Shown here: positions 10,449 to 58,344 of the stretch, piece by piece
How the letters are laid out: every line of letters starts with the position of its first letter
Position numbering within the stretch: the first letter of the stretch is position 1
NCBI GenBank assembly: GCA_037355855.1
Contig: CM074766.1
Coordinates: 1,054,001-1,118,000 of the forward strand
Source: Pseudo-nitzschia pungens
Lineage: Eukaryota > Bacillariophyta > Bacillariophyceae > Bacillariales > Bacillariaceae
DNA length: 64,000 nt
Direction of reading: 5' to 3'
Made by a program: the position numbers and the translations under genes
Notes under the pieces: model-generated
Told to the model about the DNA's origin: nothing
Seen by the model: the letters and a program-made list of their open reading frames with translations, nothing else
The model's database searches: none

Positions 10449-13400
10449 ATGGCGCCACATTCCGAGAAAACATCAAGAACCCATCTCGAAGGGCCTTTCC
10501 ATTCAGACTCAGATGGAAGCAACAAGAACAACATAGACCTCGAGCAGAACACAGATATAGTACCTGGAGTGGATCCCAAACCCAGGACCAAGTCCAAGAA
10601 AAAATCCTCCGAAAACTCTACGAAACGGAGGTCGAGGTCCAAGTCGAAACAGAGAGCCTCCACGAAAGTACCCAAAGAAACCGATGATTACGGTGACCAG
10701 AAAATAGACGAAAAGACCAAACCAAGGTCGAAATCTAAGTCAAAGCGAAAGTCCACTTCAAAAGCGACAAAAACGAGTAGTGACAACAGCGGTGTTCTAC
10801 CACGTAACAACGAAGAGCAACCAAAAGAGCAATCCGTTCCAAAAAGTGACTCCAAACCAAAAAAGGTATCCAAGCCAAAGAAGAAGAAGGAGGAGGAGAA
10901 ATCTTCAGTCAAAGAAGTTGTGCAACCCGAGCCAGTCAATACCCTTGAACGATTTCTACAAGATTCCTTCACCACTCTCAGTGACGACAATGACTGCTAT
11001 GCCAAGACTAAAAAAACCACGACTAAAAAAACCAAGGCCAAGACCAAGAAACGAGAGACTACAAAACGCTCTTCCACAAAATCTCCAAAAAGAAGATCAA
11101 ACTCGAAGAGCAACAGGTCGAGTCGATCATCCGCGAAATCACCAGCAGACATTCCACAAAGCGTATCGGAACGAGACAAAAAGAAGCCCAAGAAATCCAA
11201 GAAACGATCCTCTACAAGATCTCCTACCCCGAATTCCCGTCCCTCCGAAAACGACGATTCTTCAATGGCAAGCTTAGAACCTACTGCCGAGGATAGGGTA
11301 GCGCTCGTAAGGAATGACAAGCCCAAGCGAACGTCAAAACTTCGCTATTCCGATTCGAACATTGTCTTTGACAAACGCGACATTACCAGCAAAAGTGAAG
11401 TATCCCTCACGCTCAACTTTAGCGATAGCGATAGTACCATCAACCACGACCCTAAACCTTTAACTGTGAGGGCATCGGAGGACCAAGAAAAACGCCGATC
11501 GACTTTTGCATCAACACGTAAGCAAAGCAATTTTCGCATCAGCAACAATCCCGAGTCGTGGGATCGCATCGAGACATTTTTCTACAACCACGGAATGGAA
11601 ATCGCCCTGGGGGTTCTGTTTTTGTGCCTAAATGTTTTAGCCGCGGCACACGGAGCCTATCAATTCACTGAGGCCGGCGGATTTACTACGGACAGTGCAA
11701 TTCTGAGGATTACGCTGCCGATTGCCCGCGCCGGGGGGAGGTTGGTGACAGTCAACTGTGCCATTTTGTTGCTGACCGCCTGCAAGTATCTGTGGACATT
11801 GGTGCGGACCTACATCACACCGGTGGTTCCGGTTGGTTTTCCGATCGACCACATCATGCCCAAGTACCATCGCATCGTTGCGCTAACGATTATTGTGTCG
11901 GGATGCATCATCCACACCTTGCCACAGATTGTAAACTACGCTACCAAGGCCATTACCTTCGACCACAAGGGAATTCGGTTTTGGACTTTCGGCGATGGTT
12001 TTGCCACCAAGCAGCTGCTGATCACCGGCACATTGCTGACCATAATCTTTTCCACCTTCTATTTGACCACACTCCAAGCCTTTAGGCGCACCACAGCCGG
12101 TTTTCGCTGGTTCTGGTTCTTCCACATGGGGGGCATTGCCACGGCGTACCCATTGCTCCTGCTGCACGGGACCTGCAAGGGCCATCCTGTCTTTTTGTAC
12201 GCGGCCCTGGTGCCTTTGATCTTGTACCTCTTCGACGTGGTCATGCGACGATCCAAAGCTGTCACTGCCAAGGTAGTGAAGTGGAGGGTCCACGATGACG
12301 AAGGGCAGGAGATCACCGAGCTGGTAATTGAATGCCCTCCCCACTTTACGTACACCCCCGGTCAGTATGCGGAACTGAAATTCGCTCCGATCTCTCGCTC
12401 TGAATGGCATCCCTTCACAATTGCTAGCGCCCCCGACGAAGAGGATGAGAAGAAGGATGATGAAAAACTAATCATCTGGGAACGAAATTCCAACAGCGAA
12501 GACGAGGACGCGGCTGAGGATGAGCCGTCTCTTCAAAGCAAGCCCAAGAGGGTCACCTTTTACATTAAAAATGTGGGGCGTTGGACCTCGGCTTTTTACG
12601 AGTATGCGGCGGCCTACGACCTGACCAAGTCGCGCAGGCCACCGGAGATTCAGATCCGAGGCCCTCATGGGGCGCCGGCAATGAACTACTTCGAGTACAA
12701 GCACATCCTGGTTGTAGGATCCGGTGTTGGTGTCACGCCGTTGCTTATCCATCTGGAACTATTTGTTTGCCAAGGGAAAGCACTTGCATCTCAACGACGT
12801 TGAATCCGGTCGCACCGCCAGAGATGACACCTTACTGTGCTGGCACAAACCTCCACGATAGCATCGTGAGTTTTTGCTCGAGAGCTGACAGTAACGTCTC
12901 AAGTGTGCGCAATCTCCACAACAGTAACTTGTTCCGTTCAACGAAAGGTCTAGGAGTGCCATCATTGGACACATTCAACGACGAGTTCAGCGACTACGTC
13001 AACTACGAGGCCGATACATTAAAGTCTCCGCTTCGCCAGCGATGCCTGTCGCTGGAAAGCATACTGGAATCGATGACGGTCTCGATGAGCCTCTTCATTT
13101 TCTTCTTGTTGGGAGAAACTATTACAATTGTAATGCAGCTGCTTGGAGCCATAGTTTCTGCCAACATGATTGCTGCCACCCTTTCGTCGAATTGCCCTAT
13201 TGGTACACGGGACGACGGCCATCGTCTCATCCATCGCAGTAGGCTTGTCTCGGTACATTAAGCTATTCCGATGCTGGGTTGAGTGCTCGATTCTCTTGGT
13301 GGACAGCTTTGCCCTGTGGATTAGTGTCAAGACTCTGCTTGTTGCAGCACACGGCGAAAAATCCACCACTGACAGTTCGTATCTGGTATTTTTTGGCATG

Positions 13401-14154
13401 GTAGTGTTTTTGCAGGCCCTGCGCATCTTTCACATCTTCTACATTACCCTCAAACCTACCTCAAACGAATCCGCCAAAAACCCCAATAGCAGCAACAGCG
13501 ATACTCCTCATTCTAGCCGTCGTAGGAGTTCGATCCAAATCAATCGAACTTCCATTGTTTCTTCGAATGGAAATACAGGAGCTCCTGAAATTTATTCCAT
13601 CGAGGGTATTATTATCAATCGCATGTTTTCCAACATGCGCTTTGCCGCTCGCAATCTTTTGCCCCCCATGTTGGAACAGGAGAAAGTAACCGATATCTTT
13701 TCAATGACCTTTTTCGGGACGCGGGAGAAACCCAAGGACTGTCGCTCCCAAAGGAGACGACAATCAAGAAGACAACGATGATGACCAGCACTCGGAGTGC
13801 GGATTGATCACCGATATGATGGGAAGCGTCATTCAGGGGTTAGACATCCGCTCTAACCTGATAAAGCAACGGCAATCCCTGCAGGAATCAGCACCGCAGT
13901 GCACGCCTGTCAGGGATACCAGTAACCACAGCCGTACGGGCAGTGACCGTTTCTTTCATCCCGGCCGGCCCGACTGGAACACAATCTTTTTGCGGGCACT
14001 CTCCAGGGCCCACGCCACCAATCCGAAGGGGGAATCGGTGGGGGTCTTTTTCTGCGGGAGCCCAGCGATTGCCAAGGACCTTCAGGTGCAGGCGGCCAAG
14101 GTGACCGCTCAGCACCAATACGCCATCCGGCATTTCGAAAGGCAGGTCCTGTAA
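10449..14154 (+). CDS. NADPH oxidase / ferric reductase-like flavocytochrome, four +1 frameshifts
   Basis: The first open frame is 10449-12803. Coding then continues in the next frames to 14154. Residues 1-360 form a highly basic Ser/Lys/Arg-rich, probably disordered tail. From about 371 come membrane helices with paired heme histidines (YHRIV..CIIH, FFHMGGIATAYPLLLLH), then the FAD motif HPFTIAS near 654, RGPHGAP, and the NADPH motif VVGSGVGVTP. These are the ferric-reductase/NOX domains, which pass electrons from NADPH through FAD and two hemes across the membrane. Past 12741 the frame must shift +1 near 12745, 12848, 13180 and 13731-13750. The last piece has the NOX end RPDWNTIFLRA and VGVFFCGSPAIA. 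Between shifts the frames stay open, and a further hydrophobic segment follows (MSLFIFFLLGETITIVMQLL). AATAAA lies at 14232. The gene may be a recent pseudogene, an assembly with extra bases, or recoded. Ferric reductase rather than superoxide-producing NOX remains possible. Confidence 0.75.
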
Positions 14155-14881
14155 GTGTAAGGATCATTGTGCACTCGGAAAACTTCTGAGCACAATACGA
14201 GCCTAAATTGTAAGACATGAATTGGAAGTAAAATAAACGTACAATATACACGTAGCCCAGACTTGCCAAGTTTTATAATGAAGATTTGTTCACTTCCACA
14301 CGCATACACATATTGGCCAGTATTTACACATCTCTTCAGATTTTTCGAAATGCTATCAACTTTCTTTGAGATGACGTTGGTTGAAAGAGCGTTTCAGAAA
14401 GCGTTTCAGTTATTCCAGTCGTCATTTTCTTCGCCATTTCCTTTCTCACCCATTACGATTTATCCCAAGACTAGATGCCAAAAGGTTCCCTATTGGAAGT
14501 ATCAAGACTAGTTTACAATGAAGAGTGAGCTACTCGGGAATCATCCTCACTGAAAGGTTTCAGGGTTCAAGCACTGCCATCTGTTGTGGAAGAATCCGTT
14601 TGAAGGGGTGTGAATCTCTCCTTCATCGCAGGAGAAGAAGTGGTTCCAACCAACTTCGTTTGGAACCTGAGAATAAGACTTTCACGACGGCAAAAAGAAG
14701 TACTAGCGACTACCAACTCCCGTACAAGTAATGATAGATAGGTTATGCTGGTGTACGCGCTTTTCTTTAGTCACACATCAAAAAGAATATAAAATTCGTA
14801 TCGTGCTATCGTACCGTACTTTGACACAATGGGGAAGGGTTCCCTCAAAAGCGAAGCAGACCGCCAAAGGGTTGGGTTCTC
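14155..14881. other. Convergent intergenic region
   Basis: It lies between the 3' ends of the NADPH oxidase-like and FUT8-like genes. A poly(A)-like AATAAA at 14232 suits the upstream gene. I see nothing else. Confidence 0.5.
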
Positions 14882-17137: not shown

Positions 17138-17164
17138 GATCGATCGATTTTGCCTCACAATGTT

Positions 17165-17251
17165 TCGATTCGATGCGATTCGATGCGATTCGATGCGATT
17201 CGATGCGATTCGATGCGATACAATGCGATACGATGCGATACGATGCGATAA
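17165..17251. repeat. 10-bp tandem repeat just upstream of the FUT8-like gene
   Basis: About nine copies of CGATGCGATT, turning into CGATGCGATA, lie 28 bases before the start codon, so probably in the 5' UTR or core promoter. Because 10 is not a multiple of 3, translating it gives an artificial Arg/Ser/His/Ile-rich peptide. Confidence 0.85.
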
Positions 17252-20200: not shown

Positions 20201-20411
20201 GCGAACACTGGGTTTGGACAGATTCGTTCCGATAGTTCGTTCTCCAATTTTGTTTAGTAGCATTGTGCTGGTTCGTAGTGTATTTTAGGGTGCAGGGTGC
20301 AGGGTGCTGGATGGATTTTACGGTATAGTGCAGAGCAGAGCAGAAGGAAGGGTAATCCAACGTTGTTCCAACAGTGCAGTGTCGCGTAGCAAATGAGAGA
20401 ACGATATACCG
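17252..20411. other. Intergenic, 3.2 kb without a supported gene
   Basis: No open frame here has a domain, a clear start or a convincing length. It holds GTAAGGTT-type motifs near 17526, 17630 and 17740, a (GATT)n run near 17909-17927, and a CATG-rich imperfect palindrome near 18670-18715. Confidence 0.5.
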
Positions 20412-22517
20412 TTATCTCGAGCAAGGGCCAAGTCCCACCAGGGCACAGATTTTTGGGCAGTAAGACCAGACCCGTTTTCCATCCTGAAACTTTCGGCACC
20501 GTCTCTTGATCCTCTTGATGTTTCTTCCGGTCAGATTGTTCATGCCCCGTCCGACCCAACGCTTGCACGTTTTTCGAGAGTCGTCGTTGTATCGAAAGTC
20601 CGGGTCGTCCTCACAGCCGGCTTTGGTGGGGGCCTGGGTAGGAGCTTTGGTGGGGGCCTGGGTAGGAGCGTTGCCGCTGGACACGCAGAAGGAACGCGAT
20701 TCGGTCTTCCCGAACTGTCCACCGCTCAAGATTTGCGAGCCGTCCAGGAACAACTTGTAATATCCCTCGCCCTGGTTGCAGCACATGCCATCACCAAAGC
20801 TGTCCTGGATCTCGAACTTGTAGCATTCTCCCGCCTGCAAGCAGACAGAACCGCTGTCGTCGGGGTACAAGTAAATCCGGTTGCCTTCGTATTGTTGGTC
20901 GCTTTCCGCCACCACCGCTCCCGATCCCTGCTCCCTGACGGCCCAGGATGTTTCTACGCCATAAATGTCTGTCCTCAATTCGAGTCTCAGCCGTCCGCTG
21001 CCGGCATTACCACACGAGGTGGTCGGAGCCTGAGTAGGATAGCCTCCGGACGTGGAAATGGTCACTTGGGCATCCCGCTTGTTGCCAGAAAGGTATTTAA
21101 ACTTGATTTCTACGTCGTAGATGGAATCTTTGTACTTCTCAATAACAAAAGATTGTCCCACATCGAGGTCGGCCACCCGGTAGCTTGGCCCGAAGATGTC
21201 TGGTCCGCCCTTTTTTTTAAATATCACTATTCGGTCGGCCGCGTGGAGGGTGCCGCTATTCGGACCCATCTTACCGTTGAACCCGATGTAAAAGTCGGTT
21301 CCGCCGTAGTCACCGTTGCTTTCTAGTCTCAGTGTGATGAGTTTTGATTTGTTCGATCCGTTGGGAACGTAGTCGTCAATTCCAGTCATGGTGTATGTCT
21401 TGGGTGAAGTGGCGGCCACAACCAGGGGATTGATAGATTGCTTTTGCAGATCGTACCAACCGAGTTGATAGTTTTTGGCCGCGTTAAAGCACATGATAGG
21501 GCCGTCATCGTCATTATAAGAGTACCCCATTATAGATGACATGTCGCCGTACTCGTTGGCACCTTTGCCGCTGTGCGCCAATCCCAAATTATGCCCGACC
21601 TCGTGCATCTGAGCCGACACCCTCTGGCACCAGTGGGCGTTGTAAAAACTGTCCCAGCGATTGATATAAGCGTAGGCGACCCAGGGACCAGATCCCGGAG
21701 GCTGGCAGAATAGAACCAGATCATACTTGCTTGCCAGACCGCCCGAGCCCCCATACATTGACTCCGCTTTGACCTTGGCAGCGATTTCCAGCGACGACGA
21801 GTCGGAATTTTTGGCGTACAAGCTCGATGGGTATGTCGACGACGCCCCCGTTTCCGACGCCGGCAGGCTGGATATTCAACTGGTTGTGAGAGCAGGCCGC
21901 ATACTGTGTCTTCAGACTAACGCGGTCCGTGAAAATGTCATCGATCAATTCCTTGGTGCTGGCTGGGGCTTTTTGGTTCACGTCCACCACACGTAGCACA
22001 AGCGTTTCTAGGGTCCCTGACTTTGAAGTAGCCAGATTACGCCGCCTCTGGCGTCGTTGTCGGTGGTGGCGTGGATCGGTGTCCGGTAGGTTTTTGATCT
22101 CGACCGACGCTGCGGTAGGAACGACCATAGCGAAGTGATGGGTGGCAATGAACTGCTCCACAAAGGCCCCCCTTGTTTTCATGACGGCTTGTCCCGAAAT
22201 GACATTCATCGATTCGAATACTTCTTCCGGAACTCCCTCGATGTCCATGATGTCGATACCGCCAAATCGTTGTGCTTGTTCCCTCGTGAATTCGCAGGCC
22301 CATACTTCTTTGTGCAGTTGTGTGGTCCTCGAACTGCATGTCCTTGAGGTAGAGAACACACTCTTCTTCCTCGTCGAGAAGGTGGCGTCGAGTCTGTTTT
22401 TCTTTGTCTTCGTGGCTGTTGTTTCCTCTTCGGACTGGGGATGATCCAATCGCAAAATCTGCCATGGCTGAGAGCGACAGCAACCATAAAGATGACATAC
22501 CAGTTGCAATTCGTCAT
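20412..22517 (-). CDS. Secreted gametolysin-like metalloprotease (peptidase M11), three +1 frameshifts
   Basis: From the ATG at 22517 the gene encodes a signal peptide (MTNCNWYVIFMVAVALSHG), a propeptide region (CVLYLKDMQFED, EVWACEFTREQAQRF) and a metzincin catalytic domain. The zinc site HEVGHNLGLAH lies at about 21575-21605 and fits HExxHxxGxxH exactly. A SSIMGYS Met-turn and a structural FNAAKNYQLGWY block follow. After a PTQAPT linker comes a Cys-rich beta domain with DSFGDGMCC, a second PTQAPTKAPT linker, and a Cys-rich C-terminal module ending PKICALVGLGPC. M11 enzymes digest cell-wall glycoproteins in green algae, and diatoms carry expanded sets. Reading needs +1 shifts near 22455, 22310 and 21810, each at a run of A or T (4, 3 and 5 long). 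Otherwise no stops occur. The first shift is less certain, because translation could start at a later ATG after the signal peptide. Confidence 0.8.
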
Positions 22518-24194
22518 CTTCTCAAAGTATTGGACGAGAAATTTCTGATGTTATGGGGTGGTTGTATTTTATTTGTCTTGGTTATGTTATTTAGCGTGGG
22601 GGAAGATTGGGAGGAGACCTCGTTGATACTCTCGGTTGAAATGATATTCTTCTCAGAATATCTTTCCAATTTGTTCTCAAATGTTTTCTGTTTTGAGATA
22701 AATCTTCGTTTTTTTATGAGACGAACCCTTGGTTCTGTTGTCCGTCTCTGACATCTCAGGTTATTTTTTAACATACTGTTTCGGTCATGGACAATTGCAC
22801 ACGATTTCACGATTGTCAAGGTTATTTCGGGACATTCAAGTGATGTATAGTCATTGATAAATAGACGTCAATAGCGTTTCTGGACCTGTCGTAGGAAGTG
22901 CTCATGGAACACGAGAAGTACACTAATTCAATAGCTCTACGACTCTGACTAGAGCTTCTTTCGGAATCTTATTCGGAACGATTGATGGAAAATTCGACTA
23001 CGTGACGAAGGATCCCATCAACCACGAATCATCCAATTAAGATTTATGAGAAAGAGATTCTTTTAGCACATTAAAGGATTCTTTCAATAAAACTTAAGGA
23101 TGGTACATCATTATGATCAACATGTGCAACTGATAATTTATAGTATCGTCGGTGAGACATTTCCTCTTGAAATAGCCCACATTCCCGGATCATCGGCATC
23201 GTCCCAATGAATTTTCATTACATTAGGTGGAACAAAGTCCGACGACAGAAAATACAAATGCCGATACTACCGAAAACCGAGTCCACAGATGCATTTCAAT
23301 CGCACAATCGTAAGATTTAATCTCTCAACGCCTAAAATTTTTGTGTCAATACCGTATTATTTTGTAAATGTTCTTACAGTCTTCTTTTTTATAAGACGGG
23401 ACTACTAATAGGTATTGGACTCCGATCGGACTTGGTAACTGCTGAAAGTCATTCCAAGGTAATCAACAATAATTACGGTAAGTTACCCAAACAATTCTGC
23501 GATAAGACCGAACCAAGTCTTGGTTCAGTGATGTGTGAATGATGTAAACGATGCACTCGTACTCATAATGCATCGAATTTAGAATCCACCCATAAACACC
23601 TTTCTTTTCCATCGGCGTTTACGTCGAATGCGAACCGCGATTCAGAGTCATCGATGAGACAGATTTAGAGGTGGGTGGGTGTCTTATGCTGTTGTGACCG
23701 TCATATGCCATGCTATCCGATCGATCATACGGGATCCGATTCATGTGTTTGGTTCGTCCTCGCTACGAACGAGGTGATTGGTACTGGTAGGATTATGCTT
23801 TTCGGAAAGCATCGATCCCTAACCGCGTCATGTTTAGTGGACAAAGGTTTCCGCACGATTGAAGGCGAAGGGGGATTAGGTCGATGAGTGGCATGCCTCA
23901 ACACTTGTTGATGGTTCACACTAATCGATTCGAAGCAGTGAACTCACCACTCACGGCAACACTCACGGAACAAATAATCAATCAAAAATTCTGGTGACTT
24001 CTAGAGGATAAAACAGTCTAATTATCCTTTATTCCATTGAATAGGAGACAAAAGTAAGGGATGAATAACTGCTTTTTATTTTTTTGTTTTGACAAACAGT
24101 AATGTGATATTATAATGAAAAAAGAGGATTGTAAATCAATGGATCTTTCGTTCCGTACGTTCAAATGAAAGTTGCTGCTCAAAGCTGGCTATTT
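22518..24194. other. Intergenic, 1.7 kb
   Basis: It separates the 5' end of the M11 gene from the 3' end of the ATRX-like gene. I see no gene, array or strong repeat. Confidence 0.5.
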
Positions 24195-27100
24195 TCATAC
24201 TGTCCCACATCCGACTTTAACCAATTCCTCGTCTTCCGGCAAAACTATCGAGTGTGATGCATGTCTTTTCATTTCTACCACGGTGCGAAGTGGTGAGTGT
24301 GGTCGTTTCCGACCATTCGTTCCTTGTTTGTCGCCCGTTCCGTCGTCCCTTGTTTCTATGGTAGAGGATCTTGCACTATTGCCATCCGTTTCTGTGGCCG
24401 TGTCCTTCGTAGGCGATATACAATTCTTCACCGCAGTGTCGATATCCGTCACGAGAGCGTCGTGGAAGTAATGCTTGCTCACAATTCGCATTGGATTCTC
24501 ACCTTGAGTGACAATCGTTACCAGTTTGTCTAACACATCGAAACTGTTCGTTTATAGCCTCCTTTCCAAGTTGTGACACGGTGCTAGGAGTCTGAAGGCG
24601 AACAGCTCCATTTTCGTTGTAGTTGCCACATTGAACTTTGGCCGAGGTATTCTTCCGATTCGGTTTTCGAAAGTGACCGTGGTACCATGCTGAATCGTAT
24701 TCCGGAATACTGCACGTCCAGTGGAGTCGAGCGTCGTGTTCGTTCATAAGTTCACAATGCCAATTCTTGGGAAGTTTGGCAATACTAGCCGTGTGATCTG
24801 TTGGAAACATGCGCCACCTGTGGCACCGGACGCACTCGACCCAGTCGTCCTCCCGCACCAGCGAGTCTATTTCATCGGTCGTGAAGCAGCGACGCAACTC
24901 CTTCCCGTCCACTACGCGATTCCCAAGGCCAATTTTGGTCACGGCGCGGGAATACACCCTCTCTTCCATCGACCCTTGCGTCAGTAGCCGGTACGCGAAG
25001 ACTCTCCTCTTCTGACCGTACCGATAGCAGCGATAAATGGCTTGCAAATCAATGGAAGGGTTGAAATGACTATCGAATCTGCATGTGTACCCCAGAGCAT
25101 GAACACAACGGTTCATGTGCCATGAGAGGATGGTTAGAATATTTACGTAATTTTGCAGCAGTCGGATTCCAGTCCCAGTATCACACAATGCCCCGTGCAA
25201 TGGTCCCCTCAAGCCACTTACAGCACCACGTGATTGGCAGATACCAAATTTATACCGATGCCTCCGGCAACTGAGCTTATAAGGAATAGCTTCAAGCGTT
25301 TGTCCCACTTAAAATCATTCAACTGATCTCCTCGTTCGGTACAACTCGTGGCTCCATCAAGGCGAAGAAAGTCTCTTCCCTTCAACCAGCCTCCGATCGA
25401 TAAATCAGGGAACGATCTGCACAGCGATGGGCACATCTCAAGCCAATCCTCGGACGCCAAGAGTTTCGCCAAAAAATCAAGAGTCTAAATAAATAATATC
25501 CGGTCAGCACCATGCATCGAATCGGTACGAATGATCCGATTCTGTAGCGTTGGCGTACATACCTTCAGACTTTGGCTGAAAACGACGGTTTTTTCACCAA
25601 GAATAGTTGCGTGTGCCAAAATGTGCAGAAGAATGATGCATTTGTTTCCGCTGGCAATCGAATGCGTGTTGCAAGAGGAAAAGGGTAAGAAACGTGTTGC
25701 AAGGGTGAGAACGTACGAAACGTGTTCCCAGAGTGCCAGGGTTGTCGATTTCTCGAGAGCAAATAGTTACCTTTGCGTATCTGTCATATTTACGGTACCA
25801 AATTTCTCGGCAGTTTTTCTCCACCATTCAATACTATTTTCTTCACTCCCGTTATCATCGTCACTATAATCATCGTCATCATCGTCGCTGCTATCGTCAT
25901 CAGAGCTAAACGGCAAATCCAAAGAAAACTTTGCTTCTTGGTCGTTGCTACTACCATTTGATGGAATTCTTGCAGAAAATCTCCTGTTGTTGTCGCCACC
26001 AGCTTCGTAGCCTTCCTTGGGAAGGAGAGTTACCCGGGTGATTGTGGACGAGACGAAGGCACGCGTATTGTTTGAGAAAATTGTAATCGTCCGTGGCCCT
26101 TTTGTGCTCCTTGTATGCCCGATAAAGAGAGCGCTGCAATGTTGTTGGTCGCAAATGCAGGCAGACTTGTTTGAGAGGGGGCAGGTCTCTTTGCAATAGC
26201 GAGGCATCCTTTCGATTCACAAAGGACTTGAGCCTTGCACAAAGAGATTCCAACCGTTCGTCAGCGATAGCTTTCATCTCGGCAGGAGCATCCGTACCCA
26301 TACCCGCATTTATTGGGTCGATGTATTCGTTTTGAAACTCTGTCTGCGATGCACCCAATAGGTTCGGGCGAATGTAGGAGACCATGAGATAGTATTCCAG
26401 CAGATTATTTTGAAAGGGTGTGCCAGTCAAACAAATCCTTCTCTTTGTTCTAATTCCCATAAAAGCCTTGGAGACTTGATTGTCTTTTTTCTTCAGCATT
26501 CTGTGGCTATTGTGGAAGTTTTTGAAGTCAAACAGACACTAGTAAGTATAGGCAAAGCCTCTTCGGTTTGCAAATGCTGCAGAAAACCAGCTAGACACCT
26601 ACCTTTCGTCCAAAACAATTGCATCGGCGTCCGCGATTAATTTTTGAATTGTCTCGACCCTCGCCATGATGCGAAACATTGCATCAGAAGTGAGAAGTAT
26701 ACCTCCTTCATGTGACCAGCACTGGGCCACTGCATCCCGCCGAAGCATTGCTGAACTGGAAATATTGAAAATATTGAGTTTGTTCCGCAGCGTTTTGGTC
26801 CATTTACTAAACTCGTTTTCCCAATTAACGAGGGTGTTGACTGGAACCACCAACTACGGTCTTGCAAATCGTTCCACGTCCTGTCATGGGATTCATGAGT
26901 GACGGTTGCAACATAATTGTATGCAAAAGAGCAATGCATGAAAGTGATTTCCCTAATTGTACATGTCGCGGAAGAATGTCAGCAAGAAGGATGGTTCAGT
27001 CGACCGGGGCAATTCGATGCAATGACAACAAAGACAACGAATCACGTCCGCCAAACAACTGTATATTGAGAGAAAACAGATTTTCTTTCGCAACACTCAC

Positions 27101-29126
27101 CGAGTCCCATGGAATGGGCTAGGATGCAACCCCCAATTTGAGTCGACTCGTGGGGATCATCTCCCCCTAGATCTGCAAAGGAATTTCTATACATGAATCG
27201 GATTGCCTCCTTTTGGTGCTCCTTCAGATTCGTCTCAATGCGTCTGTCGACGGCGATGAGAGGATCGTGGGATAGAACCAGGGAGGAAGGCTGAAAATCG
27301 TCGACGTAGTTATTCCGGGATCTCCCAACCGCCATATTGAGTCGGTCTGTGTGGCCCCTCCGTTGTGTACCGGTAGTTGTCGTTCTGACCACGCCTGACG
27401 TTGTCTCGGTAGAATTCTGTTTCAGTCCGGCATCCCACTGTTGAATATCTTGCCGGTCAGCTTTATTCGAATGGACTATGAGCGATGTCTTTCCCTCTTC
27501 TCGTCGACGCATGTCTTCCGATTCTGTTGCAGCTGCTATTTGCTCGTCCGAGGCTCGAATGGGATGATTCCGCCAACCGAGATCGAACAAGTCGGGTATA
27601 TTGCTGTCTTTATTGACACTCCCACCGTCGTAACTCTCAAGCTCCTCTGCATAGTCTTCGAGTTCTAAGGCGTAACGAGGGTCTAGATTCTGCTTCATCT
27701 CGTCTTTTTTTCGGTCTGATTTTTCGGCCATTTTCCGTTTCGCAATCGCCCTGTCCGCAGACACTTTCCACGACGGCTCGTTTTCGGATGTATCACTTTC
27801 GGAACTGCTATCGTCTGAAGTAGAGTCGTCGAAAAAGCGTGATCCCATTTTACCCTTCGATAGCTTTTTCTGAATCATGCGAAATACTGCGTGGGCTTCG
27901 ATCCCATGGTCGGCCTTCAATTTGTCTTGCAATATTCCGATACGATCTAGCAAGCGCGTGTGATGATCTATCCATTGTTGGTGTACTTTGCGGACACGGC
28001 GTTCCAAACGATCCTCACTCTCATTCCTTTTCGTTTTCGTTCGCCTCGCTTATGAGGTCCCGTCGTGTAACGGTAAGCAGCATCTCTTCGTGATCCAGTG
28101 TGGACTCGCAGTTTTGTTTTTCCATTTCTAGACATTGCAATTCTCCGATTGCATCCTCGACGGATTGCCTGCGCTTGTCCGGTTTCTGTGTGCTTGTCGA
28201 AAAGAGTTTTTGCGTATTCCTTCGCAACGCACGAAGCAAGGATGGGAGGTCGCTTTCGGGTTTCGCACAGGTTCCACAAAAGCACCGCCAAGCGTTTCGC
28301 AACTGAGGGCATATTTTCCGGCCATCGCCCCGATAGGCCTGCTCGAAGCATTGGGGACAGATAGTCCTTTTACAAACCGTACAGGACCAAGAGTCTTGTT
28401 TCTCTTCTTCCATTTCTTCGGTGTCTTCGTGCTGTCGCTTCCCACACGCGCTGCAGGCATTGGAGAGCGTTCCGTCGCCTTGTGTCTGGTGCGAGGTCTG
28501 AGGTGGCTTGCGCAGTGTCTTTTGCCCCGTCCTGATGTCTATGGTTACCTTCATCTTGCTGCCGTTTGCGTTCCACCGCCTCGATTCCGTCCGCACAGAC
28601 CACGCAGACAGGCACTCCCAGCAATGGATGTAGATGCAGAGCCGCGCAGCAGATTAGCTCATCTTCGCTTTCGGCCTCGGCTTCAGCACCAAGGCAAGTA
28701 GTACGTGTGCTCCCCGGAGGGGAGTCCGGGATGCTGGATCCACGTGTGGCATCCCCAGCAATGGTTCCTGAAAAAGTTCAGGGTGGAAACCGCGTCTTCG
28801 TCGTCGGACTCGTCTCGATCGGCATCTCCAACTGTTGCAACGGCACCGTCGTGCGTAGAAGGTGCCATGGAGCGATATTTGGACGCAATTCGTGTCACCA
28901 AAACCTCTTCTTCCTGATTCCTCGAGGGACTCGATGCCACGACTTCCTTCTCCGACGAAGGGGATGAGGAGGGCGATGACGCAGTAGGAGATACAGCGGA
29001 CGACGATGTTGAAACTGTCTCTGGCACACGTGTCACTGCGCTTCTTCCCCTCACCATCTCTCGTAAGAAGTCCTTTGCAGAACGTTCGGTGACTCCGTCG
29101 TATGCTATGTTCATGGTCGATTGCAT
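24195..29126 (-). CDS. ATRX: ATRX-like SNF2 chromatin remodeler with ADD-like and CW zinc fingers, six +1 frameshifts
   Basis: The six exons are 29126-27101, 26952-26603, 26506-25771, 25650-25563, 25484-25222 and 25078-24195. Introns are 148, 96, 120, 78 and 143 bases, all GT-AG. The N-terminal half has a GATA/PHD-like cysteine cluster (CWGC, CVVC, CSACGK, CTVCKRTICPQC, CFCGTC) arranged like the ATRX ADD histone reader. Then come the SNF2 blocks: GCILAHSMGLGKS (Walker A, across intron 1), VPVNTLVNWENEF, VLDESHRM (DExH, across intron 2), ICLTGTPFQNN, an acidic insert, TVVFSQSL, SSVAGGIGINLVSA and YRYGQKRRVFAYRL. A CW finger follows (WVECVRCHRWR, NWHCELMNE). The likely role is ATP-driven nucleosome remodelling in the nucleus. 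+1 shifts are needed near 28691, 28566, 28029, 26852, 26030 and 24542. A closer match to the ARIP4 branch is possible. Confidence 0.8.
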
Positions 29127-32249: not shown

Positions 32250-33521
32250 CTGCCAACCAGATTTGGGTGGAACCGCTTTCCAGTTCTACCGAGCAGTGAC
32301 AACAAAGAGCGGCGGGCAACTGTCGAAGAAACAACAAACAGCATACTATAGATGCATTTTCGAATGTTTTCACCTGTGAAGCGTTAGGTACAAGAAGTAC
32401 GATGGTGCTTGTACCAATAGATATTGTCACCTTTTCCTTTTGGAATCGTCCTCCTTCATTCAAAAACGATGAGCAAGCGTTGCATCGCATGACAGATAAA
32501 AGACTTAAACTTATACCTTAGTTATTGAAACCTTTCTTTGATCATCGCAAGTTTCACGTTATTGCTTTGTCAGCAAATAGTAAGGATGAGCAAGAATATT
32601 CTGGGGTTGATTCAGAACTACTTGATTAAAAACATCCTCGGTACCAGCAGCCATCTCCTCCTCGACCCCACCACCAGTCTTGACTATGGTGGTGGTGGTT
32701 TGCTTGTTGTTCTTCTTGTGCTGGTGGTGCTGGTGCTGGAGGAGGTGTCATGATGACACGACAACGGTACTTCTTCTGGATACCCGACGAGGGACTAGTA
32801 ATACAAGAAGGAAGAGGAAATAATAATACTAGTACTAACCTTACTACTACTACATGCTGGCCGATTTGGACCAATCGAGTTATGAATGGGATTGATCCGC
32901 ACACCAAGAGGCAATCGTAGACACTGAACAGTGAAATCCGCACACCAAGAGGCAATAGACAATCATGGACGCTGGACACTTAACACTGAACGCAGGTGGC
33001 CGTGAACGCCGCCTCCTTCGAGTGGTACAATTATGTCGCACACTGCATAATCAATAATCACATCATAGGTTGTCAGAGTAAGATGCATACAAGGAACTTG
33101 ACGAATGGATGAACCCCAACCGTATCCTTGTTTCCCTTTCGACTTTAAAGCGTCCTCCATTGCCCGGCGTGTAATTACCGTATGTGAATGGATCCTGGAT
33201 CCCATCCCATACCGGTAACTACCGTAACACAAAACGCATGAAACATTCCTCCCCGAACGACACAGATGGAAGATACAGTAAACCTTACGAGTAACTTATT
33301 TGTCAACTTGATTGTGTCCAAACCATTGAGTTTCTTGTCTCAATTGTGATCGAAACCGAACATCCCTTTTTGCCATCGTTGGGAATGGGCGTTTTCCAGA
33401 GAGTGTAACCAACCAACCAACCAACGAACCAATCAACCCAACATCGAATCTCATCTCATCTCATCCCATCTCCTTCCATCCCATTGCATCGCATGTTGGT
33501 TGCTGCCGAGGAGGACCAACG
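32250..33521. other. Intergenic, 1.3 kb
   Basis: No gene is supported. GTAAACCTTACGAGTAAC-type motif near 33280, GGTGGTGGTT-like and TGCTGGTGG runs near 32690-32745, and a direct repeat ATCCGCACACCAAGAGGCAA near 32894 and 32937. Confidence 0.5.
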
Positions 33522-36500
33522 ATGGACGATTCGCAACAGGAACGGGGGGACCGCCAGTGGGAGGGGGACGAAACAATCGGGAATGATTCGGATCCATTTG
33601 CGGTGCAACATGGATTGAACTGCTGGTCTCGCTGGTGTTTGGGAGAAGAGGAAGGGGAAAATGGAAATGAAATTGAAATTGAAAATACCGGCAATGATTT
33701 GGATAACGAGGAGGAGGAACCGAATTGGATCACGCAGCGTCGATACCCGACGCAAACCGTGAACCTTGACCGGTCCATCGGGGAACAATGGTTGTGCATT
33801 CGTCGCAATGCTCCGGGGTTTCCTTCCAACGGAGGTAACCAACGAGAGAACGACGCGAAAGTGGAGATCCACCGAGCAGCAAGGACAAAAAATTCTGGAT
33901 CTGGTCTGCCGGAAGTCACTACTGCCGAAACCCAGGATACGTCCGATACGAACCAAATGTCGCTGCTGGCCTACCTCAATCAGCCCGAATCGCAGTCACA
34001 AACGCAGTCTGGAGGTCCGTCGCGAACCAACAGCCCAACGTCGTCGCAATCGCAATCCGATTCGCAATCGCAATCCGAATCGGAGAACGGATCGGTACAA
34101 ACATCCGAGACGCGATCGCCGCTGTCCGTGGAGCTCATGCCAGCGGACGACGCACTGAAGGGCCACCGTACTCCTCGGGGACGTGCCTTTCCATTTTCAA
34201 GCACCGACGGGCAGCCCCTGCTGGGGTTGATCCTGGAGCCGATTTTGGTTCCACCGCGAGTCCTCCCCGGCCGAGACAGTCCCGAGGCAGCGACGTGGCT
34301 CTGGACCCTCAGGGATGAGAGACCTCTTTCGGGGCATGACCCTCCTGCTGCCGCTGTGGCGGACAGCAGCAGTGGCAACGGAACGCAAGCTCTGCTGCCC
34401 GATGGTGCATGCGAAGACTCGTCGGTGGAGCTCTGGAGGCGGACGGAATTTGTTCGTACCCCTACATGTACCGAACCGGATGCAAAATCAACAACGAGGA
34501 GGAAGCGCATCCGGCTTCCGTTGCCGAGGCGCCGGCTGACGATTCTGTGTCCGGGAGACGCGATTCGCATTCGAACTCGAATTCAATTGCGGCGGCGACC
34601 GCAGCCTCTCCACCACGGCGGGCATGCCCGGGACCGGGACGTGTGCCCTCAATCGTCCGCCATGCTGTGCCTGGAATTTTTCGAGACCCGTGCAAATGAC
34701 TCGAGCTGCGCCATCCCGGCAGCAGCAGCGGCAGCAAATGCAACAACAGTTGATTCCCCCGCGGCGATGGAGGCGGTCCATTGCGAGGGACACGACGGCA
34801 TTGCCGAAATCGTGCGTCCTTTGGATGACCCGGATCTCGACAAACACAATGACGGAGACGAGGACGAGGACGAGAACGAGGAGTACCGCCTTCCCGAGGC
34901 CCCGCAACGGTGCGAGGCCGCCGACGATCCCCCCAACACGTTTTGCGGGACCGTCGTTCCGGTCGGAGCTGCCGCCCACGACTCGGCCCGGAGCGTGGCG
35001 GTCGACAGCACGGTCCATCCGGTCCAGGAATCCCTGCGTTCGGAGCGACTCGAGCTGCTGCGAGCTCGCGGCGAACATCGGCCTCGTCCCGTGGGTTCTG
35101 TCGAAGCTGCTGCTGCTGCTGCTGCTTCCGAGGATCTCATTCCAGCTGCCGACACGAATGCGGAAGCGAGAACGAGAACGAGTGCCTCCGAGAATCGGTC
35201 ATCGGATCCGACCGGTGGAGAAGCCTCCGATGCCACGGCCCAAAAGTCCCATCACTCGAACCGCCCGCAATCCCAGAACGTCCGAGCCCTGGAAGAGAGC
35301 GGCCGTCCGTCGTTCCTTCGCACCCAGACGCAGCCGGAGAAGACTCACCGCCCGCGATCTCCGCCGCATCCGACGGGAATAAACACCAAATGTAACGGCA
35401 ACCACAACGACAATGATAATGATAATGTTCCAAACCATGAGAGTGCCGCAACAAAACCCCGACTTCCCTTGCCCCTGCCGTCTTTGCCCTTTGATGTGGT
35501 CACTACGAAACCAACGGAGCGATCCGTCCTCCCTCCGGACGACGAGGGATTGACCCAAGACGAATTTTTCTCACAGACGCAAAGCCAAATCCAAACTCCG
35601 TCGCAGACGCAGACACCATCGCACTCGCACTCGCAGCTTGGACGATCTCGTTCCATGCCGGTTATTTGTGGTCTATCTCCCGAGTCCACCGCTCGGCAAC
35701 ACGGAGAGGATCCACTGGAAACGACTGCGGCGGCGTTCACGCCGAAAACAACAGCTACAATCGCAGAGAATGCCAACGACGCAAAACCGGTGGCTGCCGG
35801 TGCTGCGGCTGCTGCCGAGTCTCCACCAGACAGCTTCGGTAATGCTACTGCAAAACAAATCATCGATAGAGGGGCTCGATCGCAGGAGACGACCCGTGCT
35901 TCCGCCGACGGCGACGAAGCCTCCCTCGACGAAAGCTTTTGCACCCAACCAAGTGCCGCGCTCGACATAAAATGTGGAACCGGTGACACTCCGGATCGGC
36001 GCCGATCGGATCACGAATCCATGTCGGAAGTTGCGGCGGAGGACACTCGCAAGGAACTTGTAACTACGACCGAGACGGAAGCGGAAACCTCGGCAAAACG
36101 GGAGCGTGCGACGGAAATCGGTAACGAAGCTGCAGAGTCTGTACCAAGCAGGAGCATTCCGAGCACTGACAAGACCAACGACGATGAGATCGCCGCCGAA
36201 AAACCCATCACACGGCAATCCAGCGGGGAAGATTGCAACGATCGGGAGTGTACTGCGGATGAGCTTGGTTCTGATGCAGATGCCATTGCCCAAAAGGATA
36301 AGAACGAAGATCCTGCAGGCATTGACGGCGAGGAGAACAACTTTGACTATGGTTCTGCCGATGACGATTCGGACGCTACGATTCCAGTGTATTATTCTCA
36401 ACCGATACTAGCACCACTATGTGATCCCGCCAACCACAACAGTCCAGACCGCAACCGCAATTCGTTGGAATCTTGCAATACGACTCTCCCGCTGTTGACC

Positions 36501-39050
36501 CAACCCGATAGCGATTCCAAGACAAAGAACAATCAAAACTCTCTCGACGATGGAAATACCGGGAAAACAAAAGCAAGGATCGACGAGCAGAGAGAAAATT
36601 TCGAAAAGCAAATCACTGATGCTAATATTGCAGCCAATCATTGCGACAATGCCACCCAAGCTGCAGGAAATGGGGACCTTTCTTGCGAAAAAGCGTCCAA
36701 GGACGACGCAACTCCGGCTACGAAACATGAGCTCGACACTTATCCAAACGAAATCGTTCATGAACAGGAACAGGAACATGAAGGTGGAAGCTGCGATCCC
36801 CGGAGTCAATTGCTACTGTCCATGGATAGCGAAACCGAAGAGTGCGAACACAAACTCGGGAAAGACGACGACAACAACGAGGCTTGTCCCACACCGCGCC
36901 ATTTGCAAGAACAACGAGTTGAGTCCGGCCATCAAGAAAAGGACAAACCAACAACTACTGGCAAAAACGACGATGCTCCGAAAGCGGGCTGGGACAACGA
37001 GGCTTGCCCCGTACCGCGTCATTCGCAAGAACAAGGACTTGAGTCTAGCGATCAAAAAACGGACAAAGCTATAGCTAGTGACAAAATCAATGGAGGTCAG
37101 AAAGAGGGCTGCGATAACGATGCTTGCCCTGTGCCATGCCATTCGCAGCAACAAAGACAGAAGTCCAGCGATCAAGAAAAGGAGAAATCTATCACTTGTG
37201 AAAGCAAAAGTCCAAACACAGAGGTCGACGAAGCAGCAACCCAGGCTGGCGTTGCAGCAAAGACGATTTTGACAGAGGGAGCAGAAAGCACTCAATCGGA
37301 TCAAGAGGATCCGGTGGACAAGGCTCCGATGGACGATGAAAATGCAGAAGAAACAGTCTTTGATACGTACCGTACGAACTTCATTGGTAGCAACATGAGT
37401 CCTAGCTTGCTGCGCAATACCGGCGAAAGCATCCTCGACCATCACTCCGATGTCGACAATGATCCACCAACTGACGATAAGATCAATGCTAGCAGTGTCA
37501 AGAATCAAGCAACGGTATTGGATGAGAGTTCCGCCGTAAATCCCCTGAAAGATTCAATTACAGATTCGGCAAATCCGAGCGCGACTGCAGTTGGGGTTGA
37601 AAACGAGGGCATCGAAACGCATGAGAAAATGCCAGTGGATGCCAATCGCATCGGCAACATCGAGAGTCATTCGGTCATTCAAAAGCTTTCAGAGGTTCCC
37701 TTCACTTTCGAACCACAAATAAATACGGCCAAAGTCTCTACAAAAGAGCAACAGCAAGGGGAAACTTTCCGTCAGAGCAGAAAGCGAAAGTCACCGGCTA
37801 CCGAAGCCGAAACCAATGACAACAATCAATCGGAGAGTGGGAGAGAACAGGGAAAAAAGCCTAGAAGAGTAGACGTAGACAGCAACATAATGTTGCAGAA
37901 AGGGGAAACAGAGAACTTGAACAGAATGAGGACACGGAGATCTGCGACACACACAGCCGATACCGCGAACAAACATCAGTCGGGCAGCCAGAAAGCGCAG
38001 AATTGTACTACCGCGACCGTTGAAGCACAGGATACGATACACGTACAGTTTTCAAAAGAGAATACGATTGCTACCAATCGCGCCCAAACCCGAAAGTGCA
38101 AGTCGTCAACAATCGGGACCACAATCGGAGCGTCACCCAGTGCCGGTGCCAACATCGGACAAAAGAGACGTCGGACTCGTGAAGCAGATAGCGATAGTGC
38201 ATCCGCTGCCTGCAGGGAGGCGGATGCGTGTTACGAAAGACGATTTATTGCTGCCATCGACAGCCGGGTTGTGTTTATAGTGGTCTCAGGTGTCGAACCA
38301 AGGAACATGACCTGTGTGACCGATCTTTGTTCTATCACACCAACGAATGGAATCGAAGTCATACTGCAAGAGACTGTAGATCCTGCGACAACGATATGCG
38401 TCATGCCCACTGCACCCGGAGACGAGGGAGAAGCTCGTGCTCGTACACTGAAAGCTTTGGAATGCTCACTGCTGGGCATACCGATCGTCTCTCTCAAGTG
38501 GGTAAGAGAGTGCGTCCGGAGAGATAGGATTGTTGTTCCAAACAACTTCATACGGACATTGCCCTTGACTTCAGGAAGTCGGTCCAGGAACAAGGAGTCG
38601 CGGCATGGAGTGGCACGCTTAGCTGTGATGCGAGGCAGCGAGCCAAGAAATCTGCTGTTCCAAAACACGAGCGTTGTCTTTTGTGGTGTGTATTCCAACG
38701 AGAAGAAGAAAAGCATCATCAAATTGTTAGAACAAGGCGGTGCGAATGTCATTTCCACGTCGAGAGATGCCTGCACGCGGCTGAAATCAATTGTGGAGTC
38801 CTCGCTCACACCACACGCACCGGAGAACAAATTCGTTCTGTTGGTAGGAGATCGCGGGAAAGCGATACCGAAAACTCTGTACAAGGCGACGAAGGAAACG
38901 CTTTACGCGATCCAGTCATCAAACGTTTACGTTGTGGATTCCAATTGGGTGAGTCTTTCAATTGCATGTGCCCAGATGTTGCCACCGATTGACTTCAAAC
39001 CAATGGATGGAAGGGATTTGTGGCATCTGAGCAAGGTTCTTTGCGAGTAG
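33522..39050 (+). CDS. Giant BRCT-domain protein with SQ/TQ clusters, MDC1-like
   Basis: One intact exon of 1842 codons starts at an ATG at 33522. The last 260 residues look like tandem BRCT repeats: VVFIVVSGVEP, GIPIVSLKWVRECV with the conserved Trp of BRCT helix 3, VVFCGVYSNEKKK, LLEQGGANVIS, and VYVVDSNWVSLSIA. The long middle is acidic and disordered. It carries dense SQ/TQ clusters near residues 150-190 and 680-710 (SQTQSQIQTPSQTQTP), the kind of site used by ATM/ATR kinases. Residues near 1120-1220 hold three degenerate repeats built on the core DNEACP.PRHSQEQ. Tandem BRCTs plus SQ/TQ clusters describe DNA-damage adaptors such as MDC1 or PTIP, which bind phosphorylated proteins at breaks. 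Orthology is not shown; I see no clear FHA domain at the N-terminus. Confidence 0.75.
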   Translation: MDDSQQERGDRQWEGDETIGNDSDPFAVQHGLNCWSRWCLGEEEGENGNEIEIENTGNDLDNEEEEPNWITQRRYPTQTVNLDRSIGEQWLCIRRNAPGFPSNGGNQRENDAKVEIHRAARTKNSGSGLPEVTTAETQDTSDTNQMSLLAYLNQPESQSQTQSGGPSRTNSPTSSQSQSDSQSQSESENGSVQTSETRSPLSVELMPADDALKGHRTPRGRAFPFSSTDGQPLLGLILEPILVPPRVLPGRDSPEAATWLWTLRDERPLSGHDPPAAAVADSSSGNGTQALLPDGACEDSSVELWRRTEFVRTPTCTEPDAKSTTRRKRIRLPLPRRRLTILCPGDAIRIRTRIQLRRRPQPLHHGGHARDRDVCPQSSAMLCLEFFETRANDSSCAIPAAAAAANATTVDSPAAMEAVHCEGHDGIAEIVRPLDDPDLDKHNDGDEDEDENEEYRLPEAPQRCEAADDPPNTFCGTVVPVGAAAHDSARSVAVDSTVHPVQESLRSERLELLRARGEHRPRPVGSVEAAAAAAASEDLIPAADTNAEARTRTSASENRSSDPTGGEASDATAQKSHHSNRPQSQNVRALEESGRPSFLRTQTQPEKTHRPRSPPHPTGINTKCNGNHNDNDNDNVPNHESAATKPRLPLPLPSLPFDVVTTKPTERSVLPPDDEGLTQDEFFSQTQSQIQTPSQTQTPSHSHSQLGRSRSMPVICGLSPESTARQHGEDPLETTAAAFTPKTTATIAENANDAKPVAAGAAAAAESPPDSFGNATAKQIIDRGARSQETTRASADGDEASLDESFCTQPSAALDIKCGTGDTPDRRRSDHESMSEVAAEDTRKELVTTTETEAETSAKRERATEIGNEAAESVPSRSIPSTDKTNDDEIAAEKPITRQSSGEDCNDRECTADELGSDADAIAQKDKNEDPAGIDGEENNFDYGSADDDSDATIPVYYSQPILAPLCDPANHNSPDRNRNSLESCNTTLPLLTQPDSDSKTKNNQNSLDDGNTGKTKARIDEQRENFEKQITDANIAANHCDNATQAAGNGDLSCEKASKDDATPATKHELDTYPNEIVHEQEQEHEGGSCDPRSQLLLSMDSETEECEHKLGKDDDNNEACPTPRHLQEQRVESGHQEKDKPTTTGKNDDAPKAGWDNEACPVPRHSQEQGLESSDQKTDKAIASDKINGGQKEGCDNDACPVPCHSQQQRQKSSDQEKEKSITCESKSPNTEVDEAATQAGVAAKTILTEGAESTQSDQEDPVDKAPMDDENAEETVFDTYRTNFIGSNMSPSLLRNTGESILDHHSDVDNDPPTDDKINASSVKNQATVLDESSAVNPLKDSITDSANPSATAVGVENEGIETHEKMPVDANRIGNIESHSVIQKLSEVPFTFEPQINTAKVSTKEQQQGETFRQSRKRKSPATEAETNDNNQSESGREQGKKPRRVDVDSNIMLQKGETENLNRMRTRRSATHTADTANKHQSGSQKAQNCTTATVEAQDTIHVQFSKENTIATNRAQTRKCKSSTIGTTIGASPSAGANIGQKRRRTREADSDSASAACREADACYERRFIAAIDSRVVFIVVSGVEPRNMTCVTDLCSITPTNGIEVILQETVDPATTICVMPTAPGDEGEARARTLKALECSLLGIPIVSLKWVRECVRRDRIVVPNNFIRTLPLTSGSRSRNKESRHGVARLAVMRGSEPRNLLFQNTSVVFCGVYSNEKKKSIIKLLEQGGANVISTSRDACTRLKSIVESSLTPHAPENKFVLLVGDRGKAIPKTLYKATKETLYAIQSSNVYVVDSNWVSLSIACAQMLPPIDFKPMDGRDLWHLSKVLCE

Positions 39051-43860: not shown

Positions 43861-44115
43861 ACCATTAACCCTAATGGTGGTTCAACAACGAATTTTGACC
43901 CCGGCTGTTAATTTTTCGACCCAAATATTCGAGTTTGGAGCAAAAAATAAATTTTTGGAGCCAAAAAATAATAATTCGAGCTTAAGAAAGGCGCTTTCGC
44001 TCCAAATAATAAAAATATTGGAGCTAAAAACATCTAAAAAAAAAGAGGGGGGTGGTCGAAACGGGTCAAAATGGTCGAAAATCAGTTATTAGACGTATTA
44101 GATGGCATGAGTGCG
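43861..44115. other. Spacer between repeat arrays
   Basis: AT-rich single-copy-looking DNA between arrays C and D, with several GGAGC(C/T)AAAAAATAA-like phrases near 43935-44030. No gene is seen. Confidence 0.4.
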
Positions 44116-48707: not shown

Positions 48708-49042
48708 CTGGACCAATCGTGATGATAATTATCCAACATCTTATGTCACCGCGTGTCGCAAGATCTGGATCGCCGGTCTCCGAAACAACTCAACCAATAC
48801 CTCGGTCGTCTTCAGTATTTTTGAGATTTAGCACTCTATTGTAGATAGTACAACCATTTAAGATCACAATTCGTTTTCTCCGTGAATGCGTTTCCCGTGC
48901 ACATTATTTTTATATTCCAATGAATTTCTACATAGAAAACGATTGTTTGGATCTGTTCACTTTCTGTAAAACATCCAAGAGAAAGCATTGCTCGGTCGTG
49001 AACAAGCCATCACGTTTGGATTCGTGCGGCAATTCGAGTCTG
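48708..49042. other. Convergent intergenic region
   Basis: 335 bases between two facing 3' ends. I see nothing in it. Confidence 0.5.
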
Positions 49043-54277: not shown

Positions 54278-55671
54278 TTAGAAGTCATCATCGAATCCAT
54301 CATCGGTTCCATCATCGGTTCCATCATCGGTTTCCGGTGGATCGGTTTGCGGGGGGTCGGTTTCCGGTGGATCGGTTTCCGGTGGATCAGTTTCCGGTGG
54401 ATCGGTCTCCGGGGGATCGGTCTCCGGGGGATCGGTTTCCGGTGGATCGGTTTCCGGTGGATCGGTTTCCGGTGGATCGGTTTCCGGTGGATCGGTTTCC
54501 GGTGGATCGGTTTCCGGGGGATCGGTTTCCGGGGGATCGGTTTCCGGTGGATCGGTTTTCGGTGGATCGGTCTCCGGGGGATCGGTTCTCCGGTGGATCG
54601 GTTTCCGGTGGATCGGTTTCCGGTGGATCGGTTTCCGGTGGATCGGTTTTCGGTGGATCGGTTTCCGGTGGATCGGTTTCCGGTAGGGCAAGAGTTGGTG
54701 GATCGGTTTCCGGTAGGGCAACAGTTGGTGGATCGGTTTCCGGTAGGGGCAACAGTTGGTGGATTGGTTTCCGGTGGGGCAACAGTTGGTGGATCGGTTT
54801 CCGGTAGAACAGCAGTTGGTGTATCAGTTCCCGGTATGGTAAAAATGAAAGAAAACAAAAAAGTTGGAGCATCGGTCGGAGATTGAGTAGGTTTGCGAGT
54901 AGGTCTGCTCGTAGGTTTGCTCGTCGGTTTGCTAGTAGGTTGGCTGGTTGGCGCGACCTTGCATGGAAGCGAGACTCCCATATTGCCGTACATGTATCCG
55001 TCGGATTCAGTGGGGTTGTGACAAGCGATCTCACAGAGCTGTTCTGTTCCAACGATCCAAGGATCTTCCTCTTCTGATGGGTCGCATGACAAATACTGAA
55101 CGATAGCCCGGTTCATTTCTTCAACAACACTGGATGCTGTTGGTCCAGCACACATGCATGTTTCGCTGTCGTCCACAGAGGTCATGTTGAAGCCCTCTTC
55201 GCTGTAGAGATCTACACCACAAAAGGGGTCATCGTTGAAGTATGATCTGGAGTTGCAATAGGATGAAACTTTCAACAAAAACGTAAATTCGTCAGAGGCG
55301 ACCACTTCGACATCGGCAGACAAGCAATAGGTACCGGAGTTGCAGGAGGCGCTCCAGTATATCTCAGAGAATGCTTCGGCAATACCAGAAAGTGTGGACA
55401 AATCTTCGGGGTCGACGCAGTCGGGAGTGACTTTCTCATTGTATAAGAAGACAACATATTGGGAATCGTAAAAGTCGTCCGTGAAGTCCGGGTCGCAAAC
55501 CGAAGATTCAGTGTCTGGAAGGTCGATGGGCATGAATCCAGGGGGCAGGCGTTTGTGCTCTTTTTCCAGCTGACGCCGCAAACCATTCTTGGCGGCGTTG
55601 GACGTCGCGGCAACGAGCGCGAGTACAACTCCAGATGCAAATTTCATCTTTTGCACAATGTGTTCTTTCAT
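54278..55671 (-). CDS. Secreted protein with PT-rich linker and PETDP repeat tail, two +1 frameshifts
   Basis: The ATG at 55671, or a second one at 55647 (MKFASGVVLALVAATSNAA), begins a signal peptide. A Cys-rich globular part of about 210 residues follows (SVCDPDFTDDFYDSQYVVF, SASCNSGTYCLSADVEV, CMCAGPTASS). Next is a PTSKPTSRPT linker of the kind seen in diatom secreted and wall proteins, then about 25 copies of the five-residue unit PETDP, and an acidic end (DDGTDDGTDDGFDDDF) at the stop 54278. The function of the globular part is unknown. Two single-base insertions in the repeat, near 54745 and 54588, throw the frame off. Sister repeat units lack the extra base, so the +1 direction is certain. 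Extracellular matrix or frustule-associated location is an inference from the linker style. Confidence 0.65.
54335..54800. repeat. 15-bp coding minisatellite (PETDP)
   Basis: Tandem copies of GGATCGGTTTCCGGT with silent and near-silent variants (GTCTCCGGG, GTTTTCGGT). Longer units with CAACAGTTGGT mark the 5' part of the coding array. The unit length of 15 keeps the frame, except where extra bases occur. Confidence 0.92.
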
Positions 55672-58297: not shown

Positions 58298-58344
58298 GTT
58301 AGGAATACATACCACCATTAATAATCTTCTATTGTTCTTTATTT

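Follow-up and report, generated by a model that had tools for sequence, protein, structure and literature searches.

Why can several genes in one stretch of the Pseudo-nitzschia pungens genome be read through only by repeated changes of reading frame, all of them in the same direction? The stretch in question, called the window here, is the whole of the 64,000 nucleotides analyzed (assembly GCA_037355855.1, contig CM074766.1, positions 1,054,001 to 1,118,000), and the genes concerned encode an NADPH oxidase or ferric-reductase-like protein (NOX), an M11 (gametolysin-type) peptidase, an SNF2/ATRX-like helicase, and a PETDP repeat protein. The pattern is real in the sequence, and it is most likely an assembly artefact and not new biology. 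We consider it highly probable that single-base insertion errors, left over in poorly polished patches of the assembly, cause the frame changes; the organism itself probably carries intact versions of the affected genes. This explanation is favored because it accounts for the direction of the changes, their presence in an essential gene, the lack of stop codons, and a patchiness below the scale of a gene.

Frame changes in four genes of the window

Reading the four genes in all three frames gave a stop-free path through each of them and 16 frame changes, six in NOX, three in M11, five in the ATRX-like gene, and two in PETDP. Introns were considered as a cause, and several frame changes of the ATRX-like gene turned out to be ordinary GT-AG introns, which were left out of the count; every other frame change in the four genes belonged to the +1 class. 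An earlier reading of the sequence alone had listed about 15 shifts, 4, 3, 6, and 2 in the respective genes, all of them +1 and none -1. The direction held without exception, as did the counts for M11 and PETDP, while those for NOX and the ATRX-like gene had to be corrected to six and five.

The shifts were then placed with a purpose-written protein-to-DNA aligner in which +1 and -1 carry equal cost and introns are an option; a -2 call was counted in the +1 class and a +2 call in the -1 class. As a control, random insertions made in an intact gene gave +1-class calls in 39 of 40 cases (35 as +1, 4 as -2) and +2 with -1 in one, and random deletions gave -1-class calls in all 40 (33 as -1, 7 as +2). 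The first M11 shift and two ATRX-like shifts (at about 28500 and 28030) were called from frame continuity only, and the PETDP pair from repeat phase.

10449..14189, + strand: NADPH oxidase / ferric-reductase-like gene (NOX), from frames, FAD-binding domain, homologs, and aligner
12744, + strand: NOX shift 1, +1 with 6/6 orthologs
12830..12876 (about 12838), + strand: NOX shift 2, +1 class, in a variable loop and the least certain (+1 with 2/6 orthologs, -2 with one, intron with three)
13181..13190, + strand: NOX shift 3, +1 with 6/6 orthologs
13731..13755, + strand: NOX shift 4, +1 with 6/6 orthologs
14137..14140, + strand: NOX shift 5, +1 by three-frame reading and with 6/6 orthologs
14162, + strand: NOX shift 6, +1 by three-frame reading and with 6/6 orthologs

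The NOX gene, for which 83 homologs were found (the best, from Pseudo-nitzschia multiseries, 52% identical), shows no frame change between 10449 and about 12740, beyond which it passes from frame 0 through 1, 2, and 0 to 1, with two more +1 shifts near the C-terminus that the sequence-only reading had missed. The comparison with orthologs which that reading proposed, made here with proteins for NOX, gave +1 at five of the six shifts against all six orthologs. The third shift had been put at a C run at 13179; the aligner places it at about 13181 to 13190. Over the variable N-terminal stretch of NOX, -1, -2, and intron calls appeared that were inconsistent among references; these were set aside. 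A NOX paralog on contig C11 is intact, with zero events in the alignments to both references (2/2), and the NOX region itself has no duplicate elsewhere in the assembly.

20412..22517, - strand: M11 (gametolysin-type) peptidase gene, from frames, PF05548, aligner, and Pfam scan
22425..22465, - strand: M11 shift 1, +1, approximate, by frame continuity
22300..22335 (near 22315), - strand: M11 shift 2, +1 with paralogs L029, L030, and L031
21801..21826, - strand: M11 shift 3, +1 class (+1 with L029 and L030, -2 with L031)
24195..28720, - strand: SNF2/ATRX-like helicase gene with PHD-like and CW-type zinc fingers and introns, from domains, frames, and paralog L032
28465..28560, - strand: ATRX-like shift 1, +1, approximate, by frame continuity
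28015..28050, - strand: ATRX-like shift 2, +1, approximate, by frame continuity
26840..26870 (near 26854), - strand: ATRX-like shift 3, +1, aligner against L032
26020..26045 (near 26031), - strand: ATRX-like shift 4, +1, aligner against L032
24540..24565 (near 24552), - strand: ATRX-like shift 5, +1, aligner against L032
54281..55770, - strand: PETDP repeat protein gene, from frames, repeat spacing, and arrays

The three M11 changes fall within the first 0.7 kb (frame 2 through 0 and 1 to 2), and the last 1.4 kb is clean. Two extra +1 calls arose against the more distant paralog L031, and one, in the repetitive tail, against L029. The five changes of the ATRX-like gene, whose coordinates are given without a defined 5' end, stand beside GT-AG introns; three of the five were +1 against three pieces of L032, a paralog that matches in pieces at 70 to 85% DNA identity. 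No copy of 20400-28700 above about 85% identity was found in the assembly, only partial paralog matches. Two repeat units of PETDP, one of 30 and one of 15 bases, have a surplus base each, which moves the frame from 1 through 2 to 0.

The sequence-only reading had further held that each shift can be undone by shortening a run of identical bases by one. Base-level placement was attempted at 11 sites and was valid at 10, one search string not being found. The best-scoring extra base was a run base only at three of these sites, of either kind at three, and a non-run base only at four (NOX shifts 2, 3, and 4 and M11 shift 2; the option at NOX shift 3 makes a stop). Shortening a run fits many sites, though not demonstrably all of them. 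The same reading had described eleven other coding regions as free of shifts. This agrees with the regions that we viewed in single frames: glutamyl-tRNA reductase, a TPR protein, pieces of phenylalanyl-tRNA synthetase, and frames of 801, 1906, and 1237 codons are all open. The 1906-codon frame (33330-39050, + strand) runs in a single frame from end to end and has a C-terminal BRCT match.

Mitochondrial-type HSP70 and the rest of the assembly

The assembly as searched comprised 28 contigs (labeled C1, C2, and so on), presumably the larger sequences, and 66.9 Mb. Fragments of Pfam domains lying in different frames were paired and assessed by eye; the scored candidates were 117/225 for kinases, 24/24 for kinesins, 49/49 for M11, 14/30 for AMP-binding, 63/63 for SNF2, and 35/35 for HSP70. 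Many domains were whole among the scored candidates, including most kinase domains, and 47 of the 49 M11 matches, that of the window included, lie within open frames of at least 350 codons. Seven shifts were resolved outside the window, in four genes, and all seven were +1.

C11:2400300-2402500: mitochondrial-type HSP70 gene (L035), three +1 shifts within 2400-2401 kb, Pfam scan and aligner
C1:1197 kb: SNF2 gene, two +1 shifts, Pfam fragments in different frames
C2:1507 kb: kinesin gene, one +1 shift, Pfam fragments in different frames
C4:4187 kb: kinase gene, one +1 shift, Pfam fragments in different frames

The resolved shifts of the window and the rest of the assembly together were +1 in 23 of 23 cases. 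This count leaves aside pairs with intron-size gaps, partial matches without a partner, events called by the hidden Markov model (HMM) survey only, a decayed HSP70 relic on C5 and an event at C9:1155341 (both described below), as well as divergent HSP70 genes (C6:583 kb, C1:2652 kb) that are split between frames and were judged undecided. The two-sided chance of a single direction is 2^-15 for the 16 shifts of the window and 2^-22 for all 23, figures to be read with the proviso that shifts within one gene may share a single cause.

The HSP70 on C11 carries the greatest weight. It is of the mitochondrial/DnaK type, its pieces matching P0084 (683 residues, from a public protein collection) at 81 to 96% identity, and all other matches to P0084 in the assembly were at most 60% identical, which leaves the C11 gene as the only mitochondrial-type HSP70 found. 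The aligner called exactly three +1 shifts in it, with the same placement against all seven references, and at each of the three sites the incoming frame is free of stops for more than 200 bases. Since mitochondrial HSP70 is essential in studied eukaryotes, three real breaks in the sole gene are not credible, recoding aside. The shifts thus occur regardless of the importance of the gene.

The HSP70 relic on C5 (L037, C5:5852094-5853649, in the region C5:5851900-5853800) shows how real decay looks in this assembly. Stops are numerous in it, and comparison with P0084 gives nine frame changes of +1, three of +2, and four of -1. Elsewhere in the family, three HSP70 copies of equal score and frame length were found at C5:5971903-5973669, C5:5986854-5988620, and C7:5076679-5078445, possibly a recent triplication.

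A 264-kb region around the window was also surveyed ab initio with the HMM. This survey was weak, missing most NOX and all M11 shifts. In simulation, it recovered 12/13 insertions and 11/13 deletions. Self-training without strand resolution degraded from 44 insertions and 7 deletions in the first round to 62/47, 70/56, and 70/55; with strands resolved, the successive figures were 32/3, 19/5, 17/7, and finally 18/7. At a lower cost of -6, there were 30 insertions and 11 deletions, with coding support on both sides for 21 and 6, respectively. By eye, three of the six supported deletions pair with a nearby insertion, both members being apparently false, which brings the figures to 18 and 3. Two further supported deletions lie within an insertion cluster and after two insertion calls beside a poly-Q stretch. 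Most of the supported deletions look false on inspection. The event at C9:1155341, in a GAC repeat, is the sole one of the survey that is apparently real and not of the +1 class.

Origin of the extra bases

The sequence-only reading had named three candidates, namely, homopolymer over-calling in poorly polished stretches, one-sided slippage in relaxed genes, and +1 recoding. The origin of the assembly in noisy long reads was borne out. Its description (PMC11499653) gives PacBio Sequel continuous long reads (CLR), Mecat2, Pilon, and Hi-C, with 67.11 Mb in 62 scaffolds, and names BioProject PRJNA1054348. Together with the +1-only lesions in the mitochondrial-type HSP70, this favors poorly polished stretches as the cause; assembly error is favored, but strict over-calling of runs is not demonstrable at every site. 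The raw CLR reads would have carried mostly extra bases, for which the literature gives conflicting support. After assembly with Mecat2, short-read polishing with Pilon would have failed over patches of about 1 kb, and each extra base left over would shift the frame by +1. Two points here are inferences, namely, the absence of the extra bases from the reads themselves and the failure of polishing in the affected patches.

Residual errors in long-read assemblies, as described in the Kastor (PMC12007338) and Polypolish (PMC8812927) papers, are likewise frame-breaking single-base indels in normal genes, often at short runs and patchy where polishing fails. The nanopore example in the Kastor text consists mostly of false deletions, whereas the resolved events here are insertions only; the latter agrees with raw PacBio reads as described in PMC6879543, one study in which insertions prevail among read errors. 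Another assembly from that project, of P. delicatissima, was dropped from an annotation of 49 genomes owing to the discrepancy between its genome BUSCO (95%) and its annotation BUSCO (72%).

Several observations weigh against residual error. The depth reported in PMC11499653 is high, 261x CLR and 497x short reads, and should have removed such errors. The BUSCO values given there by the authors show no drop for P. pungens (assembly, 80.53%; annotation, 82.51%), and the species stayed in the 49-genome annotation set. Table 1 of PMC5964698 has deletions outnumbering insertions in one CLR dataset. Shifted and clean parts of the sequence do not differ clearly in GC content or long runs, and duplication of a neighboring base by the extra base is not demonstrable at every site. 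Two 3.5-kb duplicate pairs contain no indels and five substitutions, and among three 5.6-kb copies of a transposon there are 19 substitutions and a single indel, which lies in a T run.

C1:4233800-4237300 and C1:7540195-7543695: 99.9% identical pair around SNF2 genes, no indels over 3.5 kb
C11:1026900-1030400 and C11:1212555-1216055: 99.9% identical pair around SNF2 genes, no indels over 3.5 kb

The two pairs are either recent duplications or assembly duplicates. Because these duplicates and the transposon copies are very clean, the errors in this assembly are strongly patchy. The earlier argument that random error should not spare other genes is therefore weaker than it appears, given that the errors are patchy, most kinase domains are whole, and the duplicates are nearly free of indels.

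The transposon itself, at 56340-61976 of the window, is a 5.6-kb DNA element with a DDE_Tnp_1_7 transposase on the - strand. It has near-identical copies at C3:4425923-4431558 and C11:1700210-1705849 and further copies at 96%. Short matches to its ends, about 305 to 318 bases at one end and 125 bases at the other and mostly 92 to 98% identical, look like internally deleted derivatives.

Real insertions under relaxed selection, whether in young pseudogenes or by one-sided slippage in dispensable genes, are an improbable cause of the pattern. The shifts cluster by gene, and both NOX and M11 have paralogs, so that their loss would be tolerable; however, the frames can be followed without stops, and the direction is the same in 16 of 16 cases. 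Like the C5 relic, the four window genes are recognizable and contain several frame changes, but they have neither the many stops nor the mixed directions of that relic. Nor does a dispensable function or an intact copy, which pseudogenization would presuppose, apply to the mitochondrial HSP70, and the three shifts, all +1, in the only such gene found argue against slippage in relaxed genes. Haplotype mixing, in which the consensus of a diploid strain joins alleles with indel differences, is quite unlikely as the main cause, even though it may contribute. It would be in line with the patchiness, with the heterozygosity of 0.82% reported for the diploid strain in PMC11499653, and, as collapsed alleles predict, with the lack of a second NOX copy and of any copy above about 85% identity for 20400-28700. 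Mixing alone, however, does not predict insertions only, and several frame changes should be rare in functional coding alleles.

Equally unlikely is genuine +1 ribosomal recoding, in which the extra bases would be present in the mRNA and one base skipped at each site. It would agree with shifts that are all +1, with a coding sense that is preserved, and with an affected gene that is apparently essential, and re-pairing is possible at some sites, as the sequence-only reading pointed out. Yet that reading saw no single shared motif, and none was seen in the site contexts that we inspected, no formal motif search having been made. Recoding would demand as many as six shifts in a single gene, NOX, and none in its paralog, and the proteins of relatives are continuous, a comparison made at the protein level, where shifts may be masked by the gene models. 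In programmed +1 frameshifting as known from Euplotes, the shift takes place at stop codons. The present case resembles it in the number of genes that are readable only with +1 changes, but it differs in that the incoming frame is open at all three HSP70 sites, with no stop codon at the shift, and in that no common motif was seen. Among the literature matches listed for ribosomal frameshifting in diatoms, none was on topic by title or start of abstract, and the only match listed for frameshifts in the P. pungens genome concerned, by its title, RNA viruses.

Meaning for the P. pungens gene set

That one-base insertions throughout the P. pungens genome are tolerated through efficient base skipping by its ribosomes at many places, with the mitochondrial HSP70 (three times) and NOX (six times) expressed as written, is highly improbable. 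Widespread skipping of this kind would amount to a general, stop-independent +1 recoding, which, if real, would be a discovery of major importance for translation. If the extra bases are instead residual insertion errors, the combination of a single direction, the inclusion of essential genes, and intact paralogs offers a quick, read-free check for insertion-type assembly error. The gene models of this assembly would then need caution, since genes look split, lost, or pseudogenized at stray bases, and claims on gene loss and family size in P. pungens would be biased.

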